A stretch of 64,000 nucleotides of DNA, taken from NCBI RefSeq assembly GCF_002356295.1, contig NZ_AP018042.1, positions 1,024,361 through 1,088,360 on the forward strand, given 5' to 3'. The position numbers and the translations under genes are program-made. The DNA comes from Labilibaculum antarcticum. Lineage in GTDB: Bacteria > Bacteroidota > Bacteroidia > Bacteroidales > Marinifilaceae. The number at the start of each line of letters is the position of its first letter. Within the stretch, counting starts at the first letter, position 1. Shown piece by piece: positions 1-12,809 of this stretch. The notes beneath the pieces were generated by a model. That model saw only the letters and a program-made list of their open reading frames with translations. It was not told the origin of the DNA and did no database searches.

Positions 1-784
1 ATGATGATAATCCCAATAAGGTACAAGCAACAGGAATCTGAGTTTTCTCCGCAAATTCCATTAATTCTTTTTCAGCTCCCGAAAGAGAAATTCCCTGTCC
101 AGCCAAAATCAATGGCTTCTTTGCACCATTGATTAGTGCTGCTGCAGCTTCTATCTCGGATTGATTCACTTTTGGAACCGGCTGATAAGAACGAACTCCT
201 TCGCATTTTTTATAGTCAAAATCTGCTGCTGCAATCTGAGCATCTTTTGTTATATCAATTAAAACTGGTCCCGGACGACCAGAACGAGCAATATAAAATG
301 CTTTAGCGATTACCTTGGCAATTTCATCAGCTCGTGTAATTTGAAAATTCCATTTTGTGACCGGCATTGACAAACCAATCATATTTGTTTCCTGGAAAGC
401 ATCTGTTCCCAATAAACCACTGGCTACTTGACCGGTTATTACAACCATAGGAGTTGAATCCAGGTATGCATCGGCCAATCCGGTAATTACATTTGTTGCA
501 CCAGGACCCGAAGTTGTAAAACACACCCCTGGTTTTTTACTGATTCGTGCATAAGCCTGGGCAGAATGCATTGCTCCTTGTTCATGTCGCGACATGTACT
601 GTTTCATTTCATCCTGATAATCGTACAACGCATCGTATACAGGCATAATTGCACCTCCGATGTATCCAAACATGGTATCTACATCTTCCTGAATTAGGCT
701 TCGAACCAATATCTGTGCTCCCGATATATTCTCAATGGTTTTAGTCATTCCATTCGTATTATTTGTTTTTGCTGCAATTTCCAT
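1..784 (-). CDS. ilvB: acetolactate synthase large subunit, N-terminal part (cut by window edge)
   Basis: Thiamine-diphosphate enzyme that condenses two pyruvates to acetolactate, or pyruvate with 2-oxobutyrate, as the first common step of Val/Ile/Leu synthesis. About 261 residues are visible from the ATG at 784; the remainder lies beyond base 1. The N-terminal ThDP domain is clear: FGYIGGAIMPVYDAL, then RHEQGA with the catalytic Glu, then CFTTSGPGATNVITGLADA and SGRPGPVLIDITKD, leading into the central domain. A second in-frame ATG (MTKTIEN) 13 codons downstream is an alternative start. It follows ilvD on the same strand after 93 bases and should share its attenuated transcript. Identity is certain; the C-terminal half cannot be judged. 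Confidence 0.93.
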   Translation of the reverse strand, partial: MEIAAKTNNTNGMTKTIENISGAQILVRSLIQEDVDTMFGYIGGAIMPVYDALYDYQDEMKQYMSRHEQGAMHSAQAYARISKKPGVCFTTSGPGATNVITGLADAYLDSTPMVVITGQVASGLLGTDAFQETNMIGLSMPVTKWNFQITRADEIAKVIAKAFYIARSGRPGPVLIDITKDAQIAAADFDYKKCEGVRSYQPVPKVNQSEIEAAAALINGAKKPLILAGQGISLSGAEKELMEFAEKTQIPVACTLLGLSS

Positions 785-877
785 ACTGTTTGCTGTTTTT
801 AGCCAAAAGGTAAAAGTTGAAAGCTTTAAGCCCTGAACTCCTCTAAATTTTTGGATCCGATTTTAATCCTTAATAAA

Positions 878-2713
878 TCATAATTGTCTAATGGCTCCTT
901 TATCTGCCGAAGACACAAGTCTTGCATAAGCTTGAAGCGCTTTTGAAACTTGACGATTACGCCCTCTTGGTACAAATGCTTCGTCACCAAATGCTTCTTC
1001 GTCTTTTCTTCTCTTTGCTAATTCTTCATCCGAAATACAAACGTTAATACTTCTTTTAGGGATGCTGATCTCAATTTTATCACCATCCTGAATTAAGGCA
1101 ATTGGTCCACCGGCTCCAGCTTCGGGCGACGCATGACCTATTGATAATCCTGAAGTTCCACCAGAAAAACGTCCGTCGGTAATTAGTGCACATTTAGCAC
1201 CTAATCCCATTGCTTTTAGGTAAGAGGTTGGATACAGCATTTCCTGCATTCCGGGTCCACCCGCTGGTCCTTCGTAACGAATCACAACAACATCACCAGC
1301 ATTAATTTGTTTTGTGAGAATTGCTTCGCAAGCATCTTTCTGCGAATAATATACTTTTGCAGTACCTGTAAAATCAAAAACTGATTCATCAACACCTGCT
1401 GTTTTTACAATACTTCCATTAGGCGCAATATTTCCGAAAAGAACTGCCAATCCACCATCTTTGGTGTAGGCATTTTCAATGCTTCGGATACAACCATTTT
1501 TTCGGTCTTTATCCAGCTCTTTAAAAGCCATATTCTGAGAAGCAAAAGTTAAATTTCTTCCAGACTGACCTGGCGCTGAATGATATATTTCCAATGCCTT
1601 ATCGGTCAGTTTATCAGAACAAAGATCATTTAGTGCCAATGTTTCTTTTAGATTGGCAGAATCTACTCTATACACATCAGTATTTAAAAGATTCCCTCTA
1701 TCCAATTCAGCAAGAATACTCATGATTCCTCCTGCTCTGTTCACATCTTCGATGTAATATTTAGGAGAATTAGGAGCGACTTTACACAAATTTGGTGTGA
1801 TACGAGATAGCTCATCCATATCTTTCATTGTAAAATCTACCTCAGCTTCATTGGCAATCGCCAACAAGTGAAGTACCGTATTTGTCGATCCTCCCATTGC
1901 AATATCCAAGGTCATTGCATTTCTAAAAGCATCTATTGTGGCAATTGATCTTGGCAAAACACGATCATCACCCTCTCTATAATATTTATCTGTGATATCT
2001 ACAATGCAATGAGCTGCATCCATAAATAGATCCTTACGAAGTTTATGAGTAGCCAACAATGTTCCGTTTCCTGCTAAAGCCAATCCTAAAGCCTCATTCA
2101 AACAGTTCATTGAGTTGGCTGTGAACATTCCCGAACAGCTGCCACAAGTCGGACATGCAGATTCTTCAATTTCCTGCATGCGCTCGTCGCTTACACTCTC
2201 GTCGCCTGCTTTTACCATGGCATCAACCAAATCAAGCTTCTCGCCTTTCGACTCACCAGCTTCCATCGGTCCGCCTGACACAAAAACAGTAGGAATATTT
2301 AATCGCATAGCTGCCATCATCATTCCAGGTGTAATCTTATCACAATTAGAAATACAAATCATCGCATCAACCTTATGTGCATTGCAAACATATTCAACAC
2401 TATCAGCAATAACATCGCGTGATGGCAAGGAATAAAGCATTCCATCGTGTCCCATTGCGATTCCATCATCGATGGCAATTGTATTAAATTCAGCAGCAAA
2501 ATAGCCAGATTTTTCAATCTCTTTTTTCACCATTTGCCCCACATTTTGCAAGTGTGCATGTCCAGGTACAAATTGGCTAAAAGAGTTCACGACCGCAATA
2601 ACCGGCTTTCCGAACATCTCTTCTTCCATTCCGTTTGCGCGCCACAAGCTTCTTGCTCCTGCCATTCTTCGGCCTTTTGTGGTCTGATCACTGCGTAATT
2701 TGTTTTTATACAT
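878..2713 (-). CDS. ilvD: dihydroxy-acid dehydratase
   Basis: Iron-sulfur dehydratase that converts 2,3-dihydroxy-isovalerate or -methylvalerate to the 2-oxo acid, the third step of Val/Ile synthesis. The 611 residues match the usual family length. Visible motifs are NCDKITPGM (Cys124) and [19 protein letters not shown] (about 187-204), which carry the cluster ligands, and [19 protein letters not shown] near the C terminus. It is the first structural gene after two leader peptides and two terminators (2761-3062) and is followed by ilvB. That order suggests an ilvD-ilvB(-ilvN/C) operon running out of the window, regulated by branched-chain aminoacyl-tRNA supply. Confidence 0.97.
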
Positions 2714-2760
2714 TTTGGTTAATTCGTTAATGGTTAATCTTGTTTGTTTCAGTTTGAGGC

Positions 2761-2790
2761 AAAAAAAACGCCCTTTCGTTGGAAAGAGCG
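2761..2790 (-). terminator. attenuator terminator 2, between leader peptide 2 and ilvD
   Basis: On the minus strand a 9-bp stem (CGCTCTTTC / GAAAGGGCG, one G-U pair) with loop CAAC is followed directly by eight T. It lies about 27 bases after the stop of leader peptide 2 and about 48 bases before the ilvD start, the position expected of a transcription attenuator. Confidence 0.85.
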
Positions 2791-2816
2791 CTAAATAATT
2801 TCGTTTGTTTCGAAAG

Positions 2817-2906
2817 TTATTGTGTGTGCACGTCTCCCCTCATCATCATTCTAATAATGACGATTGAAATAAAAATGACGATAATGACTACCTTAAATGA
2901 TAACAT
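2817..2906 (-). CDS. ilv leader peptide 2 (Val/Ile-rich, 29 aa)
   Basis: A 29-codon ORF starts at the ATG at 2906 and ends with TAA at 2817. It begins MLSFK and then runs [13 protein letters not shown], so 11 of 13 consecutive codons are Val or Ile; the tail is [11 protein letters not shown]. Such a run of regulatory codons just upstream of an intrinsic terminator and the ilvD gene is the classical design of a translation-coupled attenuator: ribosome stalling on scarce Val/Ile-tRNA would prevent terminator formation. Too short for standard gene calling. Which alternative hairpin competes with the terminator was not resolved by eye. Confidence 0.8.
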
Positions 2907-2920
2907 ACAATAACCGGATC

Positions 2921-2952
2921 AAAAAAAAGCCCCTTCGTTTTGGAAGAGGCTT
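2921..2952 (-). terminator. attenuator terminator 1, between leader peptides 1 and 2
   Basis: On the minus strand a 9-bp stem (AGCCTCTTC / GAAGGGGCT) with loop CAAAAC is followed by eight T. It begins about 27 bases after the stop of leader peptide 1 and lies just upstream of leader peptide 2. Stem sequence and architecture resemble the terminator at 2761-2790, suggesting duplication of the whole attenuator unit. Confidence 0.85.
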
Positions 2953-2978
2953 TAGATATTTTGTAAAACTAAATTCGT

Positions 2979-3062
2979 TTAATTTAAATATGCTTGGCCT
3001 CGAATCGTGTCCAGAAGGACGCGAATAATGACACTAATAATAAGTACTGAATTAAATTGCAT
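2979..3062 (-). CDS. ilv leader peptide 1 (Val/Leu/Ile-rich, 27 aa)
   Basis: A 27-codon ORF starts at the ATG at 3062 and ends with TAA at 2979. It begins MQFNS and then VLIISVIIRVLL, so 10 of 12 codons specify Val, Leu or Ile; the tail is DTIRGQAYLN. It precedes terminator 1 (2921-2952). Unlike leader 2 it contains Leu codons, so the two leaders may sense partly different amino acids. Promoter not firmly placed; a TTGACA lies about 55 bases upstream. Confidence 0.78.
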   Translation of the reverse strand: MQFNSVLIISVIIRVLLDTIRGQAYLN

Positions 3063-3432
3063 ATTTTTTTTGCTAGTTTGAACCTCTAAAGATTCATATT
3101 GTTTTTAACTTTGTCAACGAACATTTACAATCTCTCTTTCGATCTGATTACGCTGACAAATCTATGCGACAAATATAAAAAGAAAAATCCCCAATTTCCA
3201 AATCTTACGATTCCCAATTGCTATTTTCTATCTAAATATCGTCTAAACAATGAGCCTTACGTATTGACTGTCAGTATTTTTAATTTTAAAACACATCCCG
3301 TATTAATGTAACTTTCAATTGACAAAAAACAAGTGGAATAATCTTAAAATAACTTTATGCAAAGCTTTGCGCCTCTTGCTTATGACACAAAACATCCACA
3401 AACACCTTCGTAATTCCAACTTAAATGTACTA
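3063..3432. other. intergenic region upstream of the ilv leader
   Basis: AT-rich spacer of about 370 bases that should hold the ilv promoter at its left end. Apart from a small GCAAAGCTTTGC palindrome near 3359 no gene or further structure is evident. A 70-codon plus-strand open frame here has no coding character. Confidence 0.5.
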
Positions 3433-3442
3433 CAAAAAATAA

Positions 3443-3473
3443 AGGCTATTGAAATTTCCATTTTCAACAGCCT
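3443..3473 (-). terminator. terminator of the 3489-4507 operon
   Basis: On the minus strand a 12-bp stem (AGGCTGTTGAAA / TTTCAATAGCCT, one mismatch) is followed by TTATTTTTTG. It sits 16 bases after the stop of the last gene of the small operon. Confidence 0.75.
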
Positions 3474-3488
3474 CTAAAATCACCTTCT

Positions 3489-3716
3489 TTAGCTATTAGA
3501 ATCCATAGGTTTTGTAGGCGTAGACTTTTTCCATATCAATCGTCCAATGAACCTGCCCACCCAATTGCTAATCCTTTCCTGAAAAAGATTTTCAATAGAA
3601 TAATTAGATTTAGCATTTCTAAAAAAATGTTTCAATTTATAACCGGTCAACTCCTTTTCTAAATATAGACGATACCTTTCCTGTCTTATATCTTTTAATG
3701 AATGAAACCGTTTCAT
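3489..3716 (-). CDS. small basic hypothetical protein, last gene of YtxH/holin-like operon
   Basis: The function is not recognised. From the ATG at 3716 the product is 75 residues, beginning MKRFHSLKDIRQERYRLYLE, a charged helical start typical of the small third gene that accompanies YtxH and holin-X-like proteins in Bacteroidota. The C-terminal part (NWVGRFIGRLIWKK) is amphipathic and basic and could associate with membrane. Longer in-frame starts exist (ATG at 3740, TTG at 3755), but the first conserved-looking residues begin at 3716. It lies 85 bases after the membrane-protein gene and is followed by a good terminator, so co-transcription is likely. Confidence 0.6.
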   Translation of the reverse strand: MKRFHSLKDIRQERYRLYLEKELTGYKLKHFFRNAKSNYSIENLFQERISNWVGRFIGRLIWKKSTPTKPMDSNS

Positions 3717-3801
3717 ATTGTATCTTTTTCTTACAGGCATCTGTAATTGTGACAATGCGTAAAATAATCATTTCCCGATTTAGAGTTCAAACCGATAGAA
3801 T

Positions 3802-4170
3802 TCAATTTTGATTTTCCTTTTTAATCTCATCTTTGAAGAGAAACTGATGGAAAAATTTAATTAAAGGGCGCTCAATCAATGGTTTTTTAAGAAGATAAAC
3901 CAAAAATAACAAAAGCAGGTAAAAGAGACCAATACACAGATAGCCAGCAATTTCATTCTCCAACAAATCACCAAGCCAAATTGCAACACCAATACCAGAA
4001 AAAAGCATGGCAAGCGCAATCAGAACGAAAACAACACCAACAAAGGTTATTGCTACAACGAGTCGCATTAATTTTTCGAAACCAGTAAATTTATAATATT
4101 CAACATTGGAATCGAAATACTCAATTAGTAATTCTTTTAATTGCGTGAATTGCTCGGCGATTTTTTCCAA
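3802..4170 (-). CDS. phage-holin-superfamily (holin-X-like) membrane protein
   Basis: Product of 122 residues with an amphipathic N-terminal segment (about 1-30), two strong membrane helices (about 32-60 and 73-97) and a charged C terminus ending KDEIKKENQN. This layout and its place directly after a YtxH-like gene fit the putative Actinobacterial Holin-X / phage holin superfamily proteins of Bacteroidota, which are general envelope or stress proteins and not evidence of a prophage. No catalytic motif is present. Middle gene of a three-gene operon (spacing 70 and 85 bases). Exact role unknown. Confidence 0.7.
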   Translation of the reverse strand: MEKIAEQFTQLKELLIEYFDSNVEYYKFTGFEKLMRLVVAITFVGVVFVLIALAMLFSGIGVAIWLGDLLENEIAGYLCIGLFYLLLLFLVYLLKKPLIERPLIKFFHQFLFKDEIKKENQN

Positions 4171-4240
4171 TACCTTTTTGATTTAGCAAATTAATTTTTC
4201 CTCAATTAGTTCTTGCAATATTCAATTGCAAGTAAGCGGA

Positions 4241-4507
4241 TTAAACGAATTCTTCTTCTTCCTTTTCTTTTCTTCTGAAATCTTCTAATTTCTTTTCCAA
4301 TTCCACAATTAATTCGTCCATTTTTTCACGCATTTGTGTCATGCTTTTATCGAAAGCAACCTCAATTTCCTCTGCTTTTTCTTTTGCTTTCACTTTCATT
4401 TTTTCACGAGTTACCTCCCCTTTATCGGGAGCGTAAAGAATCCCTAAACCAACTCCTATTGCACAGCCAGTTAGCAATCCCGCAATAATTCCTCCTGTAC
4501 TTGACAT
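4241..4507 (-). CDS. YtxH domain-containing protein
   Basis: Product of 88 residues. A glycine-rich N-terminal membrane segment (GGIIAGLLTGCAIGVGLGILYAP, residues about 5-27) ends in the YAPDKGE signature typical of YtxH/gas-vesicle-like stress proteins. It is followed by a long charged helix (KVKAKEKAEEIEVAFDKSM onward) that is probably coiled coil, ending in a Glu-rich tail. First gene of the three-gene operon 4507-3489. YtxH proteins are linked to general stress response; the molecular function is unknown. Confidence 0.85.
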   Translation of the reverse strand: MSSTGGIIAGLLTGCAIGVGLGILYAPDKGEVTREKMKVKAKEKAEEIEVAFDKSMTQMREKMDELIVELEKKLEDFRRKEKEEEEFV

Positions 4508-4798
4508 AGCATATAATTTTTAAATGAAACAATAAATTGAATATAATAATCTGATGTGTAACACCTTACATCAAGTTAAGAAATTTTACGGCAACAGTCA
4601 ATTTTTTAATTGATTGGAAAGCACTTTTTTTACCAAATAATCTTATTTGTACGCAAACATAATAAAATCAGCACAAGCAAAACTTTCACGAATACATTCA
4701 TATACCGAAAGTATAGCTACAGAAGCAATCTGCTCAGCAGTTCTGCTATTTAGATTTTATTTTTAAATTATTTACATAACACAACTTAAATTCAGACC
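4508..4798. other. intergenic region with codon-like remnant
   Basis: Spacer of 291 bases. It should hold the promoter of the YtxH operon, but no clear -7 box was found. On the minus strand 4643-4779 reads as a 45-codon open stretch with strong coding character (RTAEQIASVAILSVYECIR) but no start codon. It may be a gene relic. Confidence 0.35.
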
Positions 4799-6778
4799 TT
4801 ATTTCCGTCTAAAATCTATTTTCTGAATATTTTTGGCTATTTCTATTCTTTGGTATATCGAATCTATTATTGTATCGTACAGTTGATCCTTTAACACAAA
4901 ATCCTCAATACCATCATCAATATTCGGGTTGTCATTTACCTCAACAACATAAACTTTACCATCTATCATCTTTAAATCTACACCATACAAACCATCTCCT
5001 ATTAAAGCAGCAGCCTTTAAAGCTGTTTGTACCACAATTTCAGGAACCGATTCAATGGTAACAGTTTCGGAATTACCCGATTTATCATCCTCTTCGCCTT
5101 TCCAATTGTAAATTTGCCAATGATCTTTGTACATATAATACTTACATGCAAACAGTGGCGTATTATCAATTATTCCAATTCTCCAATCAAAATCGGAGTA
5201 AAGAAATTCCTGACAAACAACCATATCAGAAATTTTGAAAAGCTTATTTATTTCGACTAGCGCCTCCGCTTTATCTTCAACCTTTATCACTCCCAATGAG
5301 AAAGCACTGTCTGGCTGTTTCAACACCAAGGGGAAATTCATTTGATTCAACACCTTCGGATCAAATAAATTCTTAGTGAAAATCTCTGTTTCGGGGGTTA
5401 ATAATTTATGCTTTTTAAATATTTCGTTCTGATAAATCTTATTGGAACACCTCAAAATAGACCAGGGATCATCAATTACAACCAAACCTTCGGCATAAGC
5501 TGTACGTGAGAATTCATAAGTATGATCATTTACACTTGTTGTTTCCCGAATAAACAAGGCGTCAAATTCATTGATTTTATCAATGTCTTGTTTTGTAATA
5601 AACTCTAAGTATAATCCTTTTCGGTTGGCTGCACTTTTAAATTTCTGCAATGCTTTTGGACAAGAAGGTGAATTCTCTTCCTTTGGATTTATAAGTATGG
5701 CGATATCATACTTATAGTTAACCAGTTTAGTACTGTTGAATCTTTTTTTATTGAAATACTTTTTAGCGAATTCGTACACATAATTCAAATCCTGCTCTGC
5801 AACCTTATTCAGTGTTAATACCTGCACTTTTTTAATAATCCACTTTTCATCATGCTTAATAAAATCAACTTTGAACAAGGGAGCCTCGAACAATTGATGA
5901 AGCTTGCCTGCTAAAGTATTGTAACCTTTGGTATTGGTTTGTCCAAAATAAACATTCAGAGAAAAAGAATTTCCCTTCTCCTTATGCAATGATTTATTGG
6001 TGTATTCCTCAATATCATAAGCAATAGAATGAATCACGTTTACGATACGAAAATCACGTATGGTAATTGTACTTGGTATAATGCGTTGCCCACGTGCAGA
6101 AGCAAGTAAAGAAATGTAGTACCCATAACTTTGATACTTATAGCTGCTACACAAGTTAAATATTCTGAAATCAGTATTGGTCTGATAAATTGGGTTACTA
6201 ATGTATTCTTTTACTGAAATAATCTTCGCATTTATATCCAGGAATGTCCATTTATGCGGCTGATTAATAACAATAATATTAGTTGTTTTTGTAGAACATG
6301 AAGCAACATTGGTTTTAAACTCCATTTTTACAGCGTCTTCACCTTCACCGTAATAGTCAACTATTGTTTCCAAAGAATTAAATCCCCTGTTCTTATACCA
6401 ATCAATTAGTTTCGTGTTTTTAGCACTTACCTCAATCAATATTTTTTCAAAATGCTGGCGATCTGCGTATTCAAATGCATGTTTAAGCAGATAATCGCCA
6501 TAACCCATATTTTGAAATTCAGGCAGTATACCTATGGAATAGATTCGTAATGACTTACTGTATTTAAATAAAACTAAAGCTCCAAACTGAACTTTGTTCT
6601 TATCTTTATTTTCGAGAATCAAAATCTCCTGAAACTCACTTTGAATACCATGTTTGATACCCTGTTTTGTGCTTCGTTGATAAGCAGGAAAAGATGCCTC
6701 TTCTAATTTCACTAAAAAATTAAAATCATTACTATCGGATTTTCTTATCTTAACATTCATAACAATATTTACAGTCAT
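4799..6778 (-). CDS. GNAT acetyltransferase fused to RimK-like ATP-grasp ligase
   Basis: Product of 659 residues with three parts. About 7-150 is a GNAT N-acetyltransferase with the acetyl-CoA loop PEFQNMGYGDYLLKHA. About 165-335 resembles the RimK-like ATP-grasp N-terminal (RLAN) domain. About 350-650 is a RimK-type ATP-grasp domain (FPLVLKQPDSAFSLGVIKV, LYGVDLKMIDGKVYVVEVND with the metal-binding Glu/Asn). ATP-grasp ligases of this type join an amino acid, often glutamate, to a carboxyl group; the substrate here is unknown. Fusion with GNAT suggests ligation plus acetylation of a peptide or small molecule. An alternative start (MNVKIRK) lies six codons in. It stands alone with no obvious operon partner. 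Confidence 0.8.
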   Translation of the reverse strand: MTVNIVMNVKIRKSDSNDFNFLVKLEEASFPAYQRSTKQGIKHGIQSEFQEILILENKDKNKVQFGALVLFKYSKSLRIYSIGILPEFQNMGYGDYLLKHAFEYADRQHFEKILIEVSAKNTKLIDWYKNRGFNSLETIVDYYGEGEDAVKMEFKTNVASCSTKTTNIIVINQPHKWTFLDINAKIISVKEYISNPIYQTNTDFRIFNLCSSYKYQSYGYYISLLASARGQRIIPSTITIRDFRIVNVIHSIAYDIEEYTNKSLHKEKGNSFSLNVYFGQTNTKGYNTLAGKLHQLFEAPLFKVDFIKHDEKWIIKKVQVLTLNKVAEQDLNYVYEFAKKYFNKKRFNSTKLVNYKYDIAILINPKEENSPSCPKALQKFKSAANRKGLYLEFITKQDIDKINEFDALFIRETTSVNDHTYEFSRTAYAEGLVVIDDPWSILRCSNKIYQNEIFKKHKLLTPETEIFTKNLFDPKVLNQMNFPLVLKQPDSAFSLGVIKVEDKAEALVEINKLFKISDMVVCQEFLYSDFDWRIGIIDNTPLFACKYYMYKDHWQIYNWKGEEDDKSGNSETVTIESVPEIVVQTALKAAALIGDGLYGVDLKMIDGKVYVVEVNDNPNIDDGIEDFVLKDQLYDTIIDSIYQRIEIAKNIQKIDFRRK

Positions 6779-6954
6779 TTTATTACACTGATTAATAATC
6801 GCCTAAGCTTACCTCTTATTTTAAATACAAACACTACTTACTATTGCAAATTAAACAATAAAAGTGATTGAAGATTTATTATTTACAAAATATTTGCCCC
6901 CTTTTTAATAACTAAATTTATCGATTGACAATCAAGGCTTACCCCTATTGCAAC

Positions 6955-6986
6955 AAAAGACCTATAGCGCTAACTATAAGTCTTTT
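6955..6986. terminator. bidirectional hairpin terminator
   Basis: A 13-bp inverted repeat (AAAAGACCTATAG / CTATAAGTCTTTT, one mismatch) lies in the 348-base gap between the minus-strand genes at 7127 and 6778. The symmetrical A and T ends allow function on either strand; the likely user is the NifX-like gene upstream. The rest of 6779-7126 shows no gene. Confidence 0.55.
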
Positions 6987-7126
6987 ATTCGTTATTAAAA
7001 GTTCTATTTTAAGCCATCTAAAATTGGCTTATTCTATCGTTAAATACTCCTATCTGTATCCTGTTTAGCCAAAGTTCAAAATATGTTACAATCTGATATC
7101 GCCATTTTCATTAGAAAAATGAATTT

Positions 7127-7501
7127 TTAGTGACTGCATTGATGATCTCCCTCACCATGAGTATGCTGACAACTCGAACCACTATCTGCAACCGCACCTT
7201 CAACATATAGTTTAACTACTTCGGTTACATCACCCGAACATCCCCGAATGACTTCAATTCCGGAATTGTTAAGGACATTGATTGCTCCATTGCCTATTCC
7301 GCCTGCCAGCATTACAGTTACACCCGCATCGGCTAAAACCGATGCAATATTCGATTTGCAACCACAACCCTGTGGTGATTCCATCTTTTGTACATCAACA
7401 ATTTCCTTTGTTTCTGATATTGTAATCACATTGTAAAATTCACAATGACCAAAATGGCCATCAATTTGATTACTGCTTGTTACTGGAACTGCTATTTTCA
7501 T
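7127..7501 (-). CDS. NifX/NifB-type dinitrogenase iron-molybdenum cofactor domain protein
   Basis: From the ATG at 7501 the product is 124 residues. It begins MKIAVPVTSSNQIDGHFGHC, the hallmark start of the NifX/NifB/NafY cofactor-binding family (conserved DxHFGxC), and contains GCGCKSNIASVLADAGV and the glycine-rich MLAGGIGNGAINVL. The C-terminal tail SSCQHTHGEGDHQCSH is rich in Cys and His and is probably metal binding. No nitrogenase genes are near; stand-alone members are usually linked to generic Fe-S or metal cofactor handling. A GTG at 7528 would add nine residues but falls inside a -7 promoter match, so 7501 is preferred. Confidence 0.85.
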   Translation of the reverse strand: MKIAVPVTSSNQIDGHFGHCEFYNVITISETKEIVDVQKMESPQGCGCKSNIASVLADAGVTVMLAGGIGNGAINVLNNSGIEVIRGCSGDVTEVVKLYVEGAVADSGSSCQHTHGEGDHQCSH

Positions 7502-7527
7502 TTTTATATTTTTTAACTGATTTAACA

Positions 7528-7535
7528 CAAAAGTA
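7528..7535 (-). promoter_or_regulatory. -7 promoter box for the NifX-like gene
   Basis: The minus strand reads TACTTTTG, a match to the Bacteroidota -7 consensus TAnnTTTG, about 27 bases upstream of the ATG at 7501. No clear -33 element was found. Confidence 0.45.
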
Positions 7536-7736
7536 TTTTATCTTTTGGTTTTATAAAATTAATAAAACATTAGTTAGAACTCTAGACTTTGATTCTCAGA
7601 ATAGTTCCAAATAAGGGATGTATAAATTGCAGTATTGCTTTTAAAAATAGAAATACTATTTATCTGTATTAATTTTAGAGACATGAGAGGATGAAATTAT
7701 ATAGTAACTTTACCACGCAATATTATAACCAGAAAT

Positions 7737-8282
7737 ATGGACTCTATTTATTTTGACTATTTAGTACTGCCATTATTAATTTTTATGGCACGTATCTGTG
7801 ATGTATCCCTTGACACGATACGGGTAATCATGGTCTCGAGAGGATACCGTAAGTATGCTCCACTTATAGGTTTTTTTCAGGTTCTGATCTGGATTATTAC
7901 AATTACCAGAATCATGGAAAACCTTGACAATTGGCTAACTTATATTGCTTATGCAGCCGGATTTGGTATGGGTACTTATATTGGAATGCGTATTGAAGAA
8001 AAAATTGCAATGGGATATGAACTATTGCGAATTATTACTCGCACGGAAGTGGATGACTTGGTGAGTGTATTGCGTCAAAAAGGATATACAGTAACCAGTG
8101 TAGTTGGTGAAGGAAAAAATGGTGCTGTAGGCATTGTTTTCCTAATTTTGAAAAGGAAAGTTACGCGAGAAGTAATTGCGATCGTGAAGCAATACAATCC
8201 AAAAGCATACTATACGATAGAAGACATCCGATTTGTTGCTGATCCGACCTATTTGCAACCGACCAAAACCCAGTATAAATAA
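7737..8282 (+). CDS. UPF0316 (DUF5698/DUF2179) membrane protein
   Basis: Product of 181 residues. The N-terminal half carries three membrane helices (about 6-24, 42-58, 64-84) with the family signature ARICDVSLDTIRVIMVSRG. The C-terminal half (about 100-175) is a soluble DUF2179-like domain (LVSVLRQKGYTVTSVVGEGKNG, followed by a beta-rich segment). The protein family is of unknown function; the cytosolic domain resembles ligand-binding domains of YitT proteins. Monocistronic and convergent with the lactate dehydrogenase gene. Confidence 0.85.
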   Translation: MDSIYFDYLVLPLLIFMARICDVSLDTIRVIMVSRGYRKYAPLIGFFQVLIWIITITRIMENLDNWLTYIAYAAGFGMGTYIGMRIEEKIAMGYELLRIITRTEVDDLVSVLRQKGYTVTSVVGEGKNGAVGIVFLILKRKVTREVIAIVKQYNPKAYYTIEDIRFVADPTYLQPTKTQYK

Positions 8283-8390
8283 TAAACCAAATAAGCAATG
8301 TAAGTTCCGATTAAACTGAGTCCTAATTTGTGTGCTAAAATGAGTTTGAGCTTTATTATTCAACTGCTAAATATAGAGTTACACAACTTA

Positions 8391-8420
8391 CCCTGCCATT
8401 ACTTATGGAAAATAGCAGGG
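8391..8420. terminator. hairpin between convergent genes
   Basis: A 10-bp stem (CCCTGCCATT / AATAGCAGGG, one mismatch) lies in the 177-base gap between convergent genes ending at 8282 and 8460. The T-run is weak, so termination strength is uncertain. Confidence 0.4.
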
Positions 8421-8459
8421 CATTGTGTCTTTTATTCTGTCATTATCAATCAACTATTT

Positions 8460-9425
8460 TCAAAACTCCATTTGGTCTAAAACACCTTTTAAAATGCTTG
8501 CTGAATGATTGAGCTGTTCTTGTTCTTTATTATTAAGCTTTAATTTCATAACATAGTTTACGCCTTCAGCATTTATCACAGCAGGTAATCCAATATATAA
8601 GTCCTTAACCGTATCATAAGTTCCATCGTTATAAACAGAGATTGGAATAATTCTATTTTCATCATTTAAAATGGCGGAGGTGATGCTAACTAAAGTCATA
8701 CCGATGCCGTAATAAGTTGCTTTTTTGCGTTTAATAATTTCATAAGCTGCATTCTTCACTGAGTTATGAATTTCTTCTAAATGCTTGAATTCAATCTCTT
8801 TCATAGATTCAATCACATCCACAAGTGGCTTTGCTCCAACATAGGCTTGCGACCAACATACAAATTCAGAGTCACCATGCTCGCCCATGATATATGCATG
8901 AATGTTTTTAACGGAAATATTAATTTTTTGTGCAATCTCAAATCGAAGTCTTGCTGTATCAAGAGAGGTTCCACTACCAATTACTTTTGAAGGTGGAAGT
9001 CCTGATGCTCTCCAGGCTACATAGGTTAAGATGTCAACCGGATTGGATGCAACCAATATAATTCCACGAAATTTACTTTTCATCACTTGACCAACAACAA
9101 TTTTCATTATTGTCGCATTTCTATTTAATAAATCAATTCTCGATTCCCCTTCTTTTTGTGGAACTCCCGCAGTAATTACAACGATATCTGCATCTTTACA
9201 ATCGCTATATTCACCAGCATAAATTTTCATTTTTCTTGGAGCATATGATAATCCATGATTTAAATCCATGGCTTCGCCTTCTGCTCGTTCTTTGTCAATA
9301 TCAATTAAAACCAATTCTTTAACTGTACCTTGATTTATTAATGAAAATGCATAACTCATGCCAACCATTCCTGTGCCAACAATTACAACTTTACTTTTTG
9401 TTTTAGTATTACTATTTGTTACCAT
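8460..9425 (-). CDS. ldh: L-lactate dehydrogenase
   Basis: NAD-dependent interconversion of pyruvate and L-lactate in the cytoplasm. The 321 residues carry a Rossmann GTGMVGMSYAF near residue 17, and AGVPQKEGESRIDLLNRN, in which Gln stands at the specificity position (Arg in malate dehydrogenases) with the nearby substrate-binding Arg. IMGEHGDSEFVCW contains the catalytic His. The Gln makes lactate dehydrogenase the better call than malate dehydrogenase. The gene is monocistronic, with no clear promoter box identified. It fits fermentative re-oxidation of NADH. Confidence 0.93.
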   Translation of the reverse strand: MVTNSNTKTKSKVVIVGTGMVGMSYAFSLINQGTVKELVLIDIDKERAEGEAMDLNHGLSYAPRKMKIYAGEYSDCKDADIVVITAGVPQKEGESRIDLLNRNATIMKIVVGQVMKSKFRGIILVASNPVDILTYVAWRASGLPPSKVIGSGTSLDTARLRFEIAQKINISVKNIHAYIMGEHGDSEFVCWSQAYVGAKPLVDVIESMKEIEFKHLEEIHNSVKNAAYEIIKRKKATYYGIGMTLVSITSAILNDENRIIPISVYNDGTYDTVKDLYIGLPAVINAEGVNYVMKLKLNNKEQEQLNHSASILKGVLDQMEF

Positions 9426-9632
9426 TTTCTTCCTTTTTAGCTAAAAGATAAATTATTTTTTAAGATACAATAAAGTATTTACTCGTAATAAATAAACATT
9501 TACAAAAGCCTTATTCAAGTCAGACAATTGCCCAAAAGATTAACTTTCATTTCAACTCGCAATAGTGATGATACAGATTTGTGTTAAGCCAAATTGCCCC
9601 AACAATACACTTAGGGATGTACTGCTCGAGTT

Positions 9633-9883
9633 TTAATAAAATAATGAAGAAATCTTAGAAAGCCCATCTTTAAACGAATCGGAAGCAGATGAAAAAGCCT
9701 CTTTAGCTTCCTCCCATTTGTCTTAGCTTGCATTCTTTAAATCATCATACTTTGCTTGTATTTCAGCCTATTTTTTTTCTAAAGTTTTTATTGCTTGGTC
9801 ATAATAAGACTTAACATGATGTTCGACTGATTCTTTTTTAGCTTTTAACTCATCGATTTTTGCTGATACTTCATCAGATGTTT
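9633..9883 (-). pseudogene. broken coiled-coil stress protein (sll1863-like)
   Basis: On the minus strand one frame encodes a charged coiled coil (SAKIDELKAKKES ... AEIQAKYDDLKNAS ... DKWEEAKEAFSSA) typical of the small sll1863-family stress proteins of Bacteroidota. It is interrupted by an in-frame TAG (9768-9770) and TAA (9723-9725). The 5' end has no start codon and runs straight into a dispersed intergenic repeat at 9884. It therefore looks truncated by the repeat and inactivated by nonsense changes. Family assignment rests on sequence character only. Confidence 0.6.
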
Positions 9884-9975
9884 GAGCCCTTTAGGCTCCG
9901 TTCCCTCAATTTTCCTTTGTGTTCCTTGGTGATGCACTTCATTTTCCTTAGTGGTTAAATTCTTTTACTCCACAG
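9884..9975. repeat. dispersed intergenic element, copy A
   Basis: Begins with the hairpin GAGCCCTTTAGGCTC (9884-9898), followed by a tail rich in TTCCTTTGTG and ending TTAGTGGTTAAATTC. The same hairpin-plus-tail recurs at 13091 and 19334; the hairpin alone recurs at 49959. Confidence 0.6.
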
Positions 9976-10034
9976 GTTCAGTGTTCCTTGCGTCTCTTTG
10001 TATTGATTCTTATTCCATTTTTAAAAAAGAGCGT

Positions 10035-12809
10035 TTAACTGGATCCAAAAAGCAAGGAATAGATAATTAAAGCGATTAAAAGGAATCCTACGAAAAGAAA
10101 AACAAAACCAAATACTTTCACGATACGCCTTTTTTCCTTAGGGATCTCCATTTCTACAACAAGTTCATCCAACTTGCCCGATTTTTCCAATTCTTCATAA
10201 TCTCTGGGTCTGTCGGCCTTATATTCTTCCAACAGCACATGACCTGTAAAAATTACAGTATCCATGGGAAAAGATTCCGGACGAAAATGAGTATTGAAAA
10301 AGTGGATAGTAAAAATAAAACCAACTGCCAGCAAGGCTTCATCGCTATGAATGATTTGAGCCACATTAATCAGCCAGCCAGGCATAAACTTAGTAAACAT
10401 CTCGGGAAACCATAACACTAATCCGGTAAAACCGATAATGGCCACACCCCAAAACACGGCCAGATAATCGAATTTCTCCCAATAAGTCCATCGTCCGTAA
10501 TTTGGTCGCTCTCCTCTTCCCACGAACCACTTCATACTTGCCCAAAAATCTTTAGCATCTTGTCGGTTAAAGAGTAGAGAATGTTTGCCAAATATAAATT
10601 GCGACCATCCAAAACCCATTTTCCTCTTGCTTTTGATAAGCGAAAAAAGGTGAAATACAAAATATCCAAAAGTGACTACCGCACCCAAACGATGCAATGC
10701 ACCTGCCATTTCGACACCTCCCAATAAGTCGACCAAATGTCTGGCCCATTGCATATTTGCAAACTTAAGCATCATACCTGTTAGGGCCAATATCACAAAA
10801 CTTAAAATAACAAACACATGGGTAATTCGCTGGCTATCGGTAAATCGTCGGATATAAACAACCTTGCCAAAATGAGGTTTAAGATTCTTCCGCCTTCGTT
10901 CACGCAAGGATCGGGGCAACCATAAAAGAGTGTGCAAACCAAAAAAACCGAACACAGCGATCAACAGCGATGACATTCCCCAAAAAGTGAAATACAAAAC
11001 TGGGTATTTATCGCGGTTGTGATGTGTTGCGTGAGTTAAAAATCCGGTAAACCGCATGTTTGCATCCTCGTGACATTTCTGACAGGTAGCCACAATATTG
11101 TCGTAGCCAACCGCTGAGTTCGGATCCTTCACATTCATATTGGAATGAGCCCCGTGACAATCGGAACATCGCGCTGCTTTTAAATAACCCAGTTGATAGG
11201 CTTTTCCATGATAGGTATCCATATAGCTTTCAGACAAATGTTTGTGACAGAGACCACACTGATGGGTTATTTCATTCATAAACTCATCTTTGTCGATTTC
11301 GGAAATAAGGTGAGCCGAATGACAGGCCGTACAGGTAGGGAATTTTTGCCCATCATTGTTTTTTGCAATTGAATGATCGCTGCGGATGTATTCATTGTAA
11401 ATTCCCTTGTGACAATTGCCACAAGTCGTGGGGATATTTTGCGGATAAACCGAAGACCTCTCGTCACTGTCTTTCAGCATGAAATGGGCAGTATGGCAAT
11501 CGATGCACACAGCACTCGAAATCAGTCCTTTTTGGGTCATGCTTCTACCATGAACACTCATCGAGTAATCGTGGTACGCATCCACTTCTTTTAGAACTGT
11601 TTGCTGAATTGCCCGACCATTTTCCTTATGACAACCGCCACAAAGTTTGGGAATGGAAAGCCGGTAAACAGGCGAAGTTTCATCCGTTTTAGCTTTTACG
11701 ATATGAGTTCCGTGACAATCGGTGCAATAGGGTGCGGATTCTTTTCCCTCTAAATAAGCTGCCCCATGCCCACTCGCCATGTAGATCTCAGAAATTTCAG
11801 CATGACAACCGGAACAATCCACTTTACCTGCTGTTTCGCAAGGGCGATATTTTTTTGCGGATACATCAGAGTGACATTTTACGCAGGTGATGTTGTTATG
11901 AGCCCAATTTGTAAGATGATTCACATCAACCTGAAGAGATATGGTATCCCCTTCAACAATTTTATGAACATCCTTTTTTTCGTGACACACCAGACAAGAA
12001 CGATCGGAAATGCTTTCAACAATATTCTGGATATTTACAATATGTGGTGGATGACAATCTGTGCAGGCAGGAATAGCTCCCGGTTTTTTTTCCCATAGTT
12101 GCTCATTGATTACCTTAGTATGCACCTGCTCTATTCGGGCATGACATTTCATGCAGGTAGCTGCGATATTTTTAAGGGAAATGCTTGAAAGCCGATTGGT
12201 ATGGGGCAATATCAAATGATTTCCATGACAATCGTTACAGGTAGCTGTAACAATCAGGCCACTCTTGTACAATCCTTTGCCATGAATACTTTGACTGTAA
12301 TTTTCTAAAATATTGTGCTCGGTTATTTGATAGGTTCGTGCAACCGGTGCACCTTCGCGATGACATCTACCACACAACACGGGAATATTCATTTTATAGG
12401 TTCGGGAATTAATATTGGTGTGAGAAAGAATATCATGCTTTCCATGACACTCCTTGCAATCAGGCGCATACCTGGCCTGTTTCCGATGTGCTTTGCCATG
12501 AATACCCCTATTGTACTTATCAGCGGCCTGCTCGTGACAATTCCCGCAATTTACTGGTTGCATAGTTTCAGGATGGGGCCAGTCCTCAACTGCTGCTTCG
12601 GGATGACATTCAATACAGGTTACCTTCCCGTGAATTGAATTCGTTATTATGGGCAGATCAACCCAGACAGATTGAGCTTTACCATTCACTTCCTTTGTGA
12701 GATAAGGATCGTCGTGGCACATCATACAAACATCGTCTTCCTGAGCAAAAAGACCAGTACTGCTGAGAATACCCAACAGACAGATAATTGCTACAATGAA
12801 CCGTTTCAT
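10035..12809 (-). CDS. 19-haem cytochrome c fused to a cytochrome b membrane domain
   Basis: From MKRFIVAIICLLG (ATG at 12809; an upstream ATG at 12833 would add eight residues before the signal peptide) the product is about 924 residues. After the signal peptide come 19 CxxCH motifs (CMMCH to CQKCH), spread over about residues 25-615, many paired with distal histidines (IHGK, GHG, YHGKAY). The C-terminal 300 residues hold about six membrane helices with conserved His (THVFVILSF, LHRLGAVVTFGYFVFHLF, IHSDEALL, TIHFFNTHF), as in cytochrome b561/formate dehydrogenase gamma. A likely role is electron transfer between the quinone pool and periplasmic acceptors or donors. Monocistronic; no maturation genes nearby. 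Confidence 0.88.
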   Translation of the reverse strand: MKRFIVAIICLLGILSSTGLFAQEDDVCMMCHDDPYLTKEVNGKAQSVWVDLPIITNSIHGKVTCIECHPEAAVEDWPHPETMQPVNCGNCHEQAADKYNRGIHGKAHRKQARYAPDCKECHGKHDILSHTNINSRTYKMNIPVLCGRCHREGAPVARTYQITEHNILENYSQSIHGKGLYKSGLIVTATCNDCHGNHLILPHTNRLSSISLKNIAATCMKCHARIEQVHTKVINEQLWEKKPGAIPACTDCHPPHIVNIQNIVESISDRSCLVCHEKKDVHKIVEGDTISLQVDVNHLTNWAHNNITCVKCHSDVSAKKYRPCETAGKVDCSGCHAEISEIYMASGHGAAYLEGKESAPYCTDCHGTHIVKAKTDETSPVYRLSIPKLCGGCHKENGRAIQQTVLKEVDAYHDYSMSVHGRSMTQKGLISSAVCIDCHTAHFMLKDSDERSSVYPQNIPTTCGNCHKGIYNEYIRSDHSIAKNNDGQKFPTCTACHSAHLISEIDKDEFMNEITHQCGLCHKHLSESYMDTYHGKAYQLGYLKAARCSDCHGAHSNMNVKDPNSAVGYDNIVATCQKCHEDANMRFTGFLTHATHHNRDKYPVLYFTFWGMSSLLIAVFGFFGLHTLLWLPRSLRERRRKNLKPHFGKVVYIRRFTDSQRITHVFVILSFVILALTGMMLKFANMQWARHLVDLLGGVEMAGALHRLGAVVTFGYFVFHLFSLIKSKRKMGFGWSQFIFGKHSLLFNRQDAKDFWASMKWFVGRGERPNYGRWTYWEKFDYLAVFWGVAIIGFTGLVLWFPEMFTKFMPGWLINVAQIIHSDEALLAVGFIFTIHFFNTHFRPESFPMDTVIFTGHVLLEEYKADRPRDYEELEKSGKLDELVVEMEIPKEKRRIVKVFGFVFLFVGFLLIALIIYSLLFGSS

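Follow-up and report, generated by a model that had tools for sequence, protein, structure and literature searches.

Two putative amino-acid attenuators in series before the ilvD gene of Labilibaculum antarcticum

Can transcription of an amino-acid operon be tested twice, by two attenuators of the same class, before its first gene is reached? In the leader-peptide attenuators of enteric bacteria (trp, his, leu, thr, ilvGMEDA, ilvBN and pheA), a short ORF rich in codons for the product of the operon is followed by alternative antiterminator and terminator structures; the accessible text of PMC1183508 adds biased regulatory codons to these shared traits. In the published models and cases that we found, as far as their texts are accessible, there is one leader ORF per terminator, with mgtCBR as the exception. 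In contrast to the enteric attenuators, the leader before ilvD in L. antarcticum has a second complete unit behind the first, and leuA is preceded by a third.

The window, that is, the whole 64,000-nucleotide stretch of L. antarcticum DNA that was analysed, holds both units on the minus strand, ahead of ilvD. This is the first gene of a cluster in the order ilvD-ilvB-ilvN-ilvC, then leuA-leuC-leuD-cimA-like-leuB, which extends past the window. Judged by gene content, its products make valine, isoleucine and leucine. ilvD, ilvC, leuA, leuC, leuD and leuB pass the NCBIfam cut-offs; ilvB (partial in the stretch used), ilvN and the cimA-like gene fall below them, though they match their own models.

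We consider it probable, at roughly 80%, that the leader holds a series of two ribosome-mediated transcription attenuators, each of them complete. Both would sense isoleucine and valine, and the first usually leucine too.

Two leader units and their conservation

The first-pass annotation described two units of ORF plus terminator, with eight T residues each, and both are present (Table 1). The T count was correct; the spacing, given as about 27 bases, is 25 nt from stop codon to hairpin start in both units, and each stem, given as 9 bp, has 11 predicted pairs (-14.8 kcal/mol in unit 1, -13.2 in unit 2). Each unit thus has an ORF with a run of product codons and, by sequence and predicted fold, an intrinsic terminator between that ORF and the structural genes. 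Isoleucine, leucine and valine reach 10 per 12 codons in the two ORFs, and both peptides are hydrophobic. ORF 2 begins 14 nt past the U-tract of terminator 1; a recognizable initiation context is absent at this start, directly 3' of terminator 1.

Table 1. Features of the ilvD leader and its surroundings; positions are those of the window unless another stretch is named.
Feature	Position	Strand	Basis
ilvD, dihydroxy-acid dehydratase	878..2713	-	NF009103 and TIGR00110 above cut-off
U-tract of terminator 2, 8 T	2761..2768	-	Sequence
Terminator hairpin 2, core CGCTCTTTC/GAAAGGGCG	2768..2791	-	92.4% of cells paired
Leader ORF 2, 29 aa	2817..2906	-	ORF call; kept in 21/21 clade leaders
Unit 2 strand 2 (GGGGAG and GTGC), within ORF 2; pairs with 2781-2791 in the antiterminator	2828..2839	-	95.5% of cells paired
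U-tract of terminator 1, 8 T	2921..2928	-	Sequence
Terminator hairpin 1, core GCCTCTTC/GAAGGGGC	2926..2953	-	Sequence and predicted fold
Unit 1 A+U helix ATATTT (2986-2991)/AAATAT (2956-2961), antiterminator extension	2956..2991	-	96.9% of cells (helix 2)
Leader ORF 1, 27 aa, MQFNSVLIISVIIRVLLDTIRGQAYLN, core VLIISVIIRVLL	2979..3062	-	ORF call; kept in 21/21 clade leaders
Unit 1 strand 2 (GAGGCC), within ORF 1; pairs with 2946-2950 in the antiterminator	2996..3001	-	Pairing in alignment
5' hairpin before leader 1, 10-bp stem TTTGTCAGCG/CGTTGACAAA, nearly invariant 31-nt loop	3110..3160	-	Alignment
Promoter-like site TTTG-N21-TATATTTG	3170..3202	-	Pattern match; presumed start site
Third leader ORF, MIYESILNGLNLIIDLIIGESTRNSV, Leu/Ile-rich, between ilvC and leuA	L112:7320-7400	-	About 3 kb before window position 1

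Chance is a poor source of such an arrangement. In 1,000 dinucleotide-preserving shuffles, the 462-nt leader never gave even one unit; the real leader has two, and its fold is more stable than those of 100 shuffles (z -4.1). On both strands of the window there are 36 terminator-like sites, five of them preceded by an ORF with at least seven Ile, Leu or Val per 12 codons, and a density of 10 per 12 is reached only by the ORFs of units 1 and 2.

Absence of the leader ORFs from close relatives would speak against the proposal, as the first-pass annotation itself pointed out. Neither unit is missing from any of the 21 distinct leaders of the Labilibaculum/Marinifilum type (six genera, here called the clade). 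The automatic finder reported two units in 20 of them. In L014 it reported one, missing unit 1 because of an interrupted T-run; that unit was read by eye. In the family sample, where 33 of 56 genomes have an ilvD match, two leader ORFs stand in series in 28 of the 33 and a single one in five (two genomes in group g13, one in g15 and two in g8). Two ORFs, each with a hairpin, are also found in groups g3 (L027, L118, L119) and g16 (L124, L253, L254, L255). We therefore rejected the idea that all loci outside the clade are single; these tandems had first been counted so because the finder demanded a T-run. Few U residues follow the strong hairpins of L027 and L119 (g3, second unit) and of L253, L254 and L255 (g16), which may therefore be inefficient intrinsic terminators.

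The search beyond the clade covered 138 loci: 98 upstream regions of at most 450 nt, nine of them from the same family and some short, and 40 stretches drawn from 218 ilvD-bearing genomes. Eight loci were flagged. Three belong to g3; L046, L068, L154, L173 and L180 make up the rest, and in these five no second terminator was seen. A scan for T-runs of four also flagged L121, through an upstream ORF unlike a leader. No two-unit leader was found outside the family in this 138-locus scan, whose criteria are not exhaustive because they missed L124. That tandem was recognized by eye and flagged by no automatic criterion, and further tandems elsewhere may be missed. A single unit is present in 46 of 92 scannable non-clade regions (six were too short) and in nine of the 40 stretches.

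The units of one leader resemble each other: in each of five genomes, none of 500 shuffles equalled the similarity of unit 1 to unit 2. This likeness fits duplication, with a contribution from shared codon make-up. In alignments judged against 60 shuffles each, the first unit of L119 matches its counterparts in L002 and L016 (z 7.7 to 13.1) and unit 2 of L016 as well (z 8.6 and 7.7). L118 and L124 show almost no alignment of their first units with those of the clade (z 0.8 to 3.5), and between L119 and the clade the second units are weakly alike (z 4.2 to 5.7). The clade, g3 and g16 units may have one origin with later losses, or more than one origin.

Farther upstream, the promoter-like site has a pattern that we take to resemble the Bacteroidota -33/-7 consensus. 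The pattern occurs in the window at chance frequency (4 found, 4.17 expected); a -7-like box, TAYATTTG, is present in 21 of 21 aligned leaders. The 5' hairpin is paired in 99.5% of cells (13 of 21 leaders aligned), and its variation consists of G-U pairs or loss, with no two-sided change. A model of it gives one strong match in this genome, followed by matches at E=7.9 and 9.8. In the order, under stricter filters, it was found in one of 149 genomes, its own; in the family outside the clade, one of 12 genomes gave a match at E=0.8, and none a good one. The hairpin looks clade-specific.

The third leader has a weak terminator-like hairpin (-8.1 kcal/mol) with nine T. ORF and hairpin are complete in 18 of 21 stretches, from this genome and 20 relatives; one is partial and two have no leuA in the stretch. 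Its isoleucine codons would fit the genes downstream, since the cimA-like gene and leuBCD could feed isoleucine. A TAGGTTTG box was seen by eye upstream of it and left uncounted. Elsewhere in this genome (L247/L250), a single His-rich leader, MTFTATHHHHHYTYQSVS, with a terminator precedes hisG, and a single Trp-rich leader, MINKYWWWHSYELSKPEQR, with a terminator precedes an anthranilate synthase gene; no Thr/Ile leader was found in the stretches examined before two homoserine-dehydrogenase genes.

Antiterminator pairing, computed switching and codon choice

Is there an antiterminator that takes the 5' arm of each terminator and so excludes it? The first-pass annotation had proposed folding the leader to look for one, and each unit does have such a partner: the last codons of its ORF are complementary to the terminator 5' arm, and an A+U helix extends the antiterminator. 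The potential for mutually exclusive pairing therefore exists in both units, with a few two-sided changes, in unit 2 only. The two antiterminator helices of unit 1 pair in 97.9% of cells with no two-sided change, so that this figure may reflect sequence conservation alone. In unit 2, where terminator and antiterminator share one arm, two-sided changes affect two antiterminator pairs (3 of 269 cells) and two terminator pairs (9 of 171 cells); L009 and L010 have GAGAAG/CTTCTC, as against GGGAAG with CTTCCC or CTTTCC in most leaders. No shuffle in 500 equalled the number of changed cells in either structure; the number of changed pairs was equalled by 34 of 500 for the antiterminator and by 438 of 500 for the terminator. 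Sliding the antiterminator by +3 gave an equal three changed cells; one pair is broken in 5 of 19 rows. The covariation of unit 2 is thus modest.

In 10 of 21 leader 1 sequences, the frame is shifted behind codon 16 by an extra base: the tail of the peptide changes and the strand pairing is kept. The pause hairpin of unit 1 pairs in 83.9% of cells and shows no covariation in the alignment. Two further features of leader 1 may be recorded. Its start-codon region, ATATGC, pairs with the ORF end, GCATAT (window 2988-3064, minus strand), in 100% of cells and 16 of 16 distinct rows, with one two-sided pair. In seven relatives of the same genus, a TGA stop after ...DTIRG ends leader 1; here the codon is CAA and the ORF runs five codons longer.

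Where on the ORF would a ribosome decide between the two structures? For each codon in turn, we folded the RNA, truncated ahead of strand 4, with a ribosome placed on that codon and an assumed footprint of 15 nt. For the named pairs, the antiterminator probability falls in unit 1 of the window from 1.00 to 0 over codons 16-18, where the run of regulatory codons ends at 17, and in unit 2 from 0.99 to 0 over codons 18-22, where the run ends at 18. With a looser automatic measure, which counts any upstream pairing of strand 3 with a threshold of 0.4, 40 of the 41 units of the clade switch no more than two codons before and three codons after the end of the run (-2 to +3); these units come from close relatives and are not independent tests. 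Only unit 1 of the window itself falls outside, switching at codon 24 (run end 17) by another, partial pairing. Among other units, 40 of 47 fall within the same limits and none of 2,000 permutations did as well; these 47 'single' units, in folding and codon counts alike, still include the first units of L027, L118, L119 and L124. Of the g3 and g16 units, 13 of 14 switch at 0 to +3 codons and unit 1 of L253 at +6. The leuA leaders do no better than permuted pairs (9 of 18 within -2 to +3 codons; 990 of 2,000 permutations).

In the full RNA at equilibrium the terminator is favoured wherever the ribosome stands (0.94 or more). The model is therefore kinetic: the antiterminator would have to form before strand 4 is made. 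An untranslated leader likewise forms the antiterminator in the folding calculation.

GTC, the rarest valine codon, supplies 109 of the 136 valine codons of the clade leaders, as against 5% in ilvD and 4.7% in the ORFs of the window, and it prevails in leaders 1 and 2 alike. In the 47 other leaders, GTC makes up 46% compared with 16% in the ilvD genes, and the leucine codon CTA 23% compared with 3%. Such bias in leaders is expected from theory, by the accessible text of PMC1183508. Among the 84 tRNA matches read in this genome, those for valine have the UAC anticodon only, in three copies, and no tRNA-Val(GAC) was found. GTC would therefore be read by wobble, and slowly.

Proposed mechanism and alternatives

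What the sequences show is the ORFs, the terminator-like hairpins, their conservation, the pairing potential and the codon bias; the place of the switch comes from calculation only. From these we infer the course of events: transcription start, translation, stalling, termination and multiplication. A ribosome would trail RNA polymerase through leader ORF 1. With Ile-tRNA or Val-tRNA (or Leu-tRNA) in short supply, it would stall in the codon run; the RNA at the ORF end, left free, could then capture the 5' arm of terminator 1, and the polymerase would continue. With charged tRNA, it would cover the ORF end, terminator 1 would form and transcription would stop. A polymerase past terminator 1 would face a second test at leader 2, which reads isoleucine and valine. 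Full expression would require both units to be open, and the read-through probabilities would therefore multiply. That two units multiply control, as had been suggested, would follow simply from two terminators in series; a toy race model with invented rates illustrates two gates multiplying and is not evidence. Such multiplication should give less leakage when amino acids are plentiful and a steeper switch when isoleucine or valine runs out. A shortage of leucine alone should open unit 1 only.

Do the two units instead divide the signals, with unit 1 responding mainly to leucine and unit 2 to isoleucine and valine, so that the operon opens on combined shortage only? The first-pass annotation had suggested different amino acids and had assigned leucine codons to leader 1 alone. 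The latter claim fails: leader 2 has one leucine (TTA, codon 2), outside its Ile/Val run, and codon 6 is also leucine in 6 of 21 clade leaders. Codons 7-18 of leader 2 are free of leucine in all 21, and in leader 1 the computed switch falls on codons 16 and 17, which encode leucine in 20 and 15 of the 21 leaders, respectively. Against a division stand the seven or eight Ile/Val codons that precede these leucines, L114, which has isoleucine at both positions, and the many single leaders of other Bacteroidota in which one ORF combines codons for all three. By codon content both units would thus read isoleucine and valine, leader 1 adding leucine in most relatives, and we regard a strict division as rather unlikely. 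(At codon 7 of leader 1 this genome has leucine, as opposed to isoleucine in the 20 other clade leaders.)

A single functional unit beside a decaying duplicate would account for the likeness of the two units beyond shuffles, for the five family members with one unit and for several poor U-tracts in g3 and g16. We think it improbable, because ORF, strand 2 and terminator are kept in both units of all 21 clade leaders and GTC prevails in both. The hydrophobic ORF products could act as small peptides in the membrane, with terminators that merely end short transcripts; the frame change that alters the leader 1 C-terminus while sparing the RNA pairing, the position ahead of Ile/Val/Leu genes, the rare valine codons and the computed switch at the codon run make this very improbable. 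Still harder to credit is control by a T-box or riboswitch in place of a translated leader. The long structured 5' leader with its extra conserved hairpin would suit one, but a scan with Rfam yielded a sub-threshold RsaF match only and no T-box covariance-model match (window 1-12000, E up to 1).

How does the pair of attenuators compare with tandem leaders already described? According to the accessible text of PMC3641672, the Salmonella mgtCBR leader has tandem attenuators with two short ORFs, mgtM and mgtP, each with its own stem-loop switch; they respond to two different signals, ATP and proline, the stem-loops are unlike intrinsic terminators, and its authors call the tandem a singular example. 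By sequence and fold, the ilvD leader likewise has two ORFs in one leader and a switch for each. What sets it apart from the mgtCBR leader so described is that the hairpins of both units are terminator-like and followed by U-tracts, and that branched-chain amino acids would be the signal for both. The rimP leader has a second terminator in tandem and a potential antiterminator, and differs in that the accessible text of PMC2965389 mentions no leader peptide. Within the Bacteroidota, leader-peptide attenuation has been proposed before amino-acid operons of Flavobacterium psychrophilum (PMC9723704, accessible text), and leader-like sORFs lie in long 5' UTRs of Bacteroides thetaiotaomicron (PMC7366714, accessible text); in the accessible text of both papers no tandem is described and ilv is not named. 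In the open-licence PMC texts, as far as accessible, we found no description of two amino-acid attenuators of the same class in series, or of a tandem in Bacteroidota. Each unit is a known device; the same-class pair in series, clade-wide and in much of the family, is a variant for which we found no description in these texts.

The natural two-ORF and one-ORF versions (28 against 5 of the 33 genomes) offer a test of what a second attenuator does to leakage, steepness and choice of signal. The leaders also show clearly how a rare codon, GTC, is preferred in a genome where a single kind of valine tRNA was found. More tentatively, and at somewhat less than even odds, much of the family may use a cascade: two-gate multiplicative control of ilvD, shut as long as neither isoleucine nor valine is scarce and with leucine read at the first gate only, and a third Leu/Ile attenuator, seen in the Labilibaculum/Marinifilum clade, governing leuACD-cimA-leuB, perhaps with its own promoter. 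The products of leuACD-cimA-leuB would then serve leucine and, via the citramalate route, isoleucine. Stacking in series would have evolved for lower leakage and a steeper response, and would overcome the limited range that the mechanism allows a single unit.
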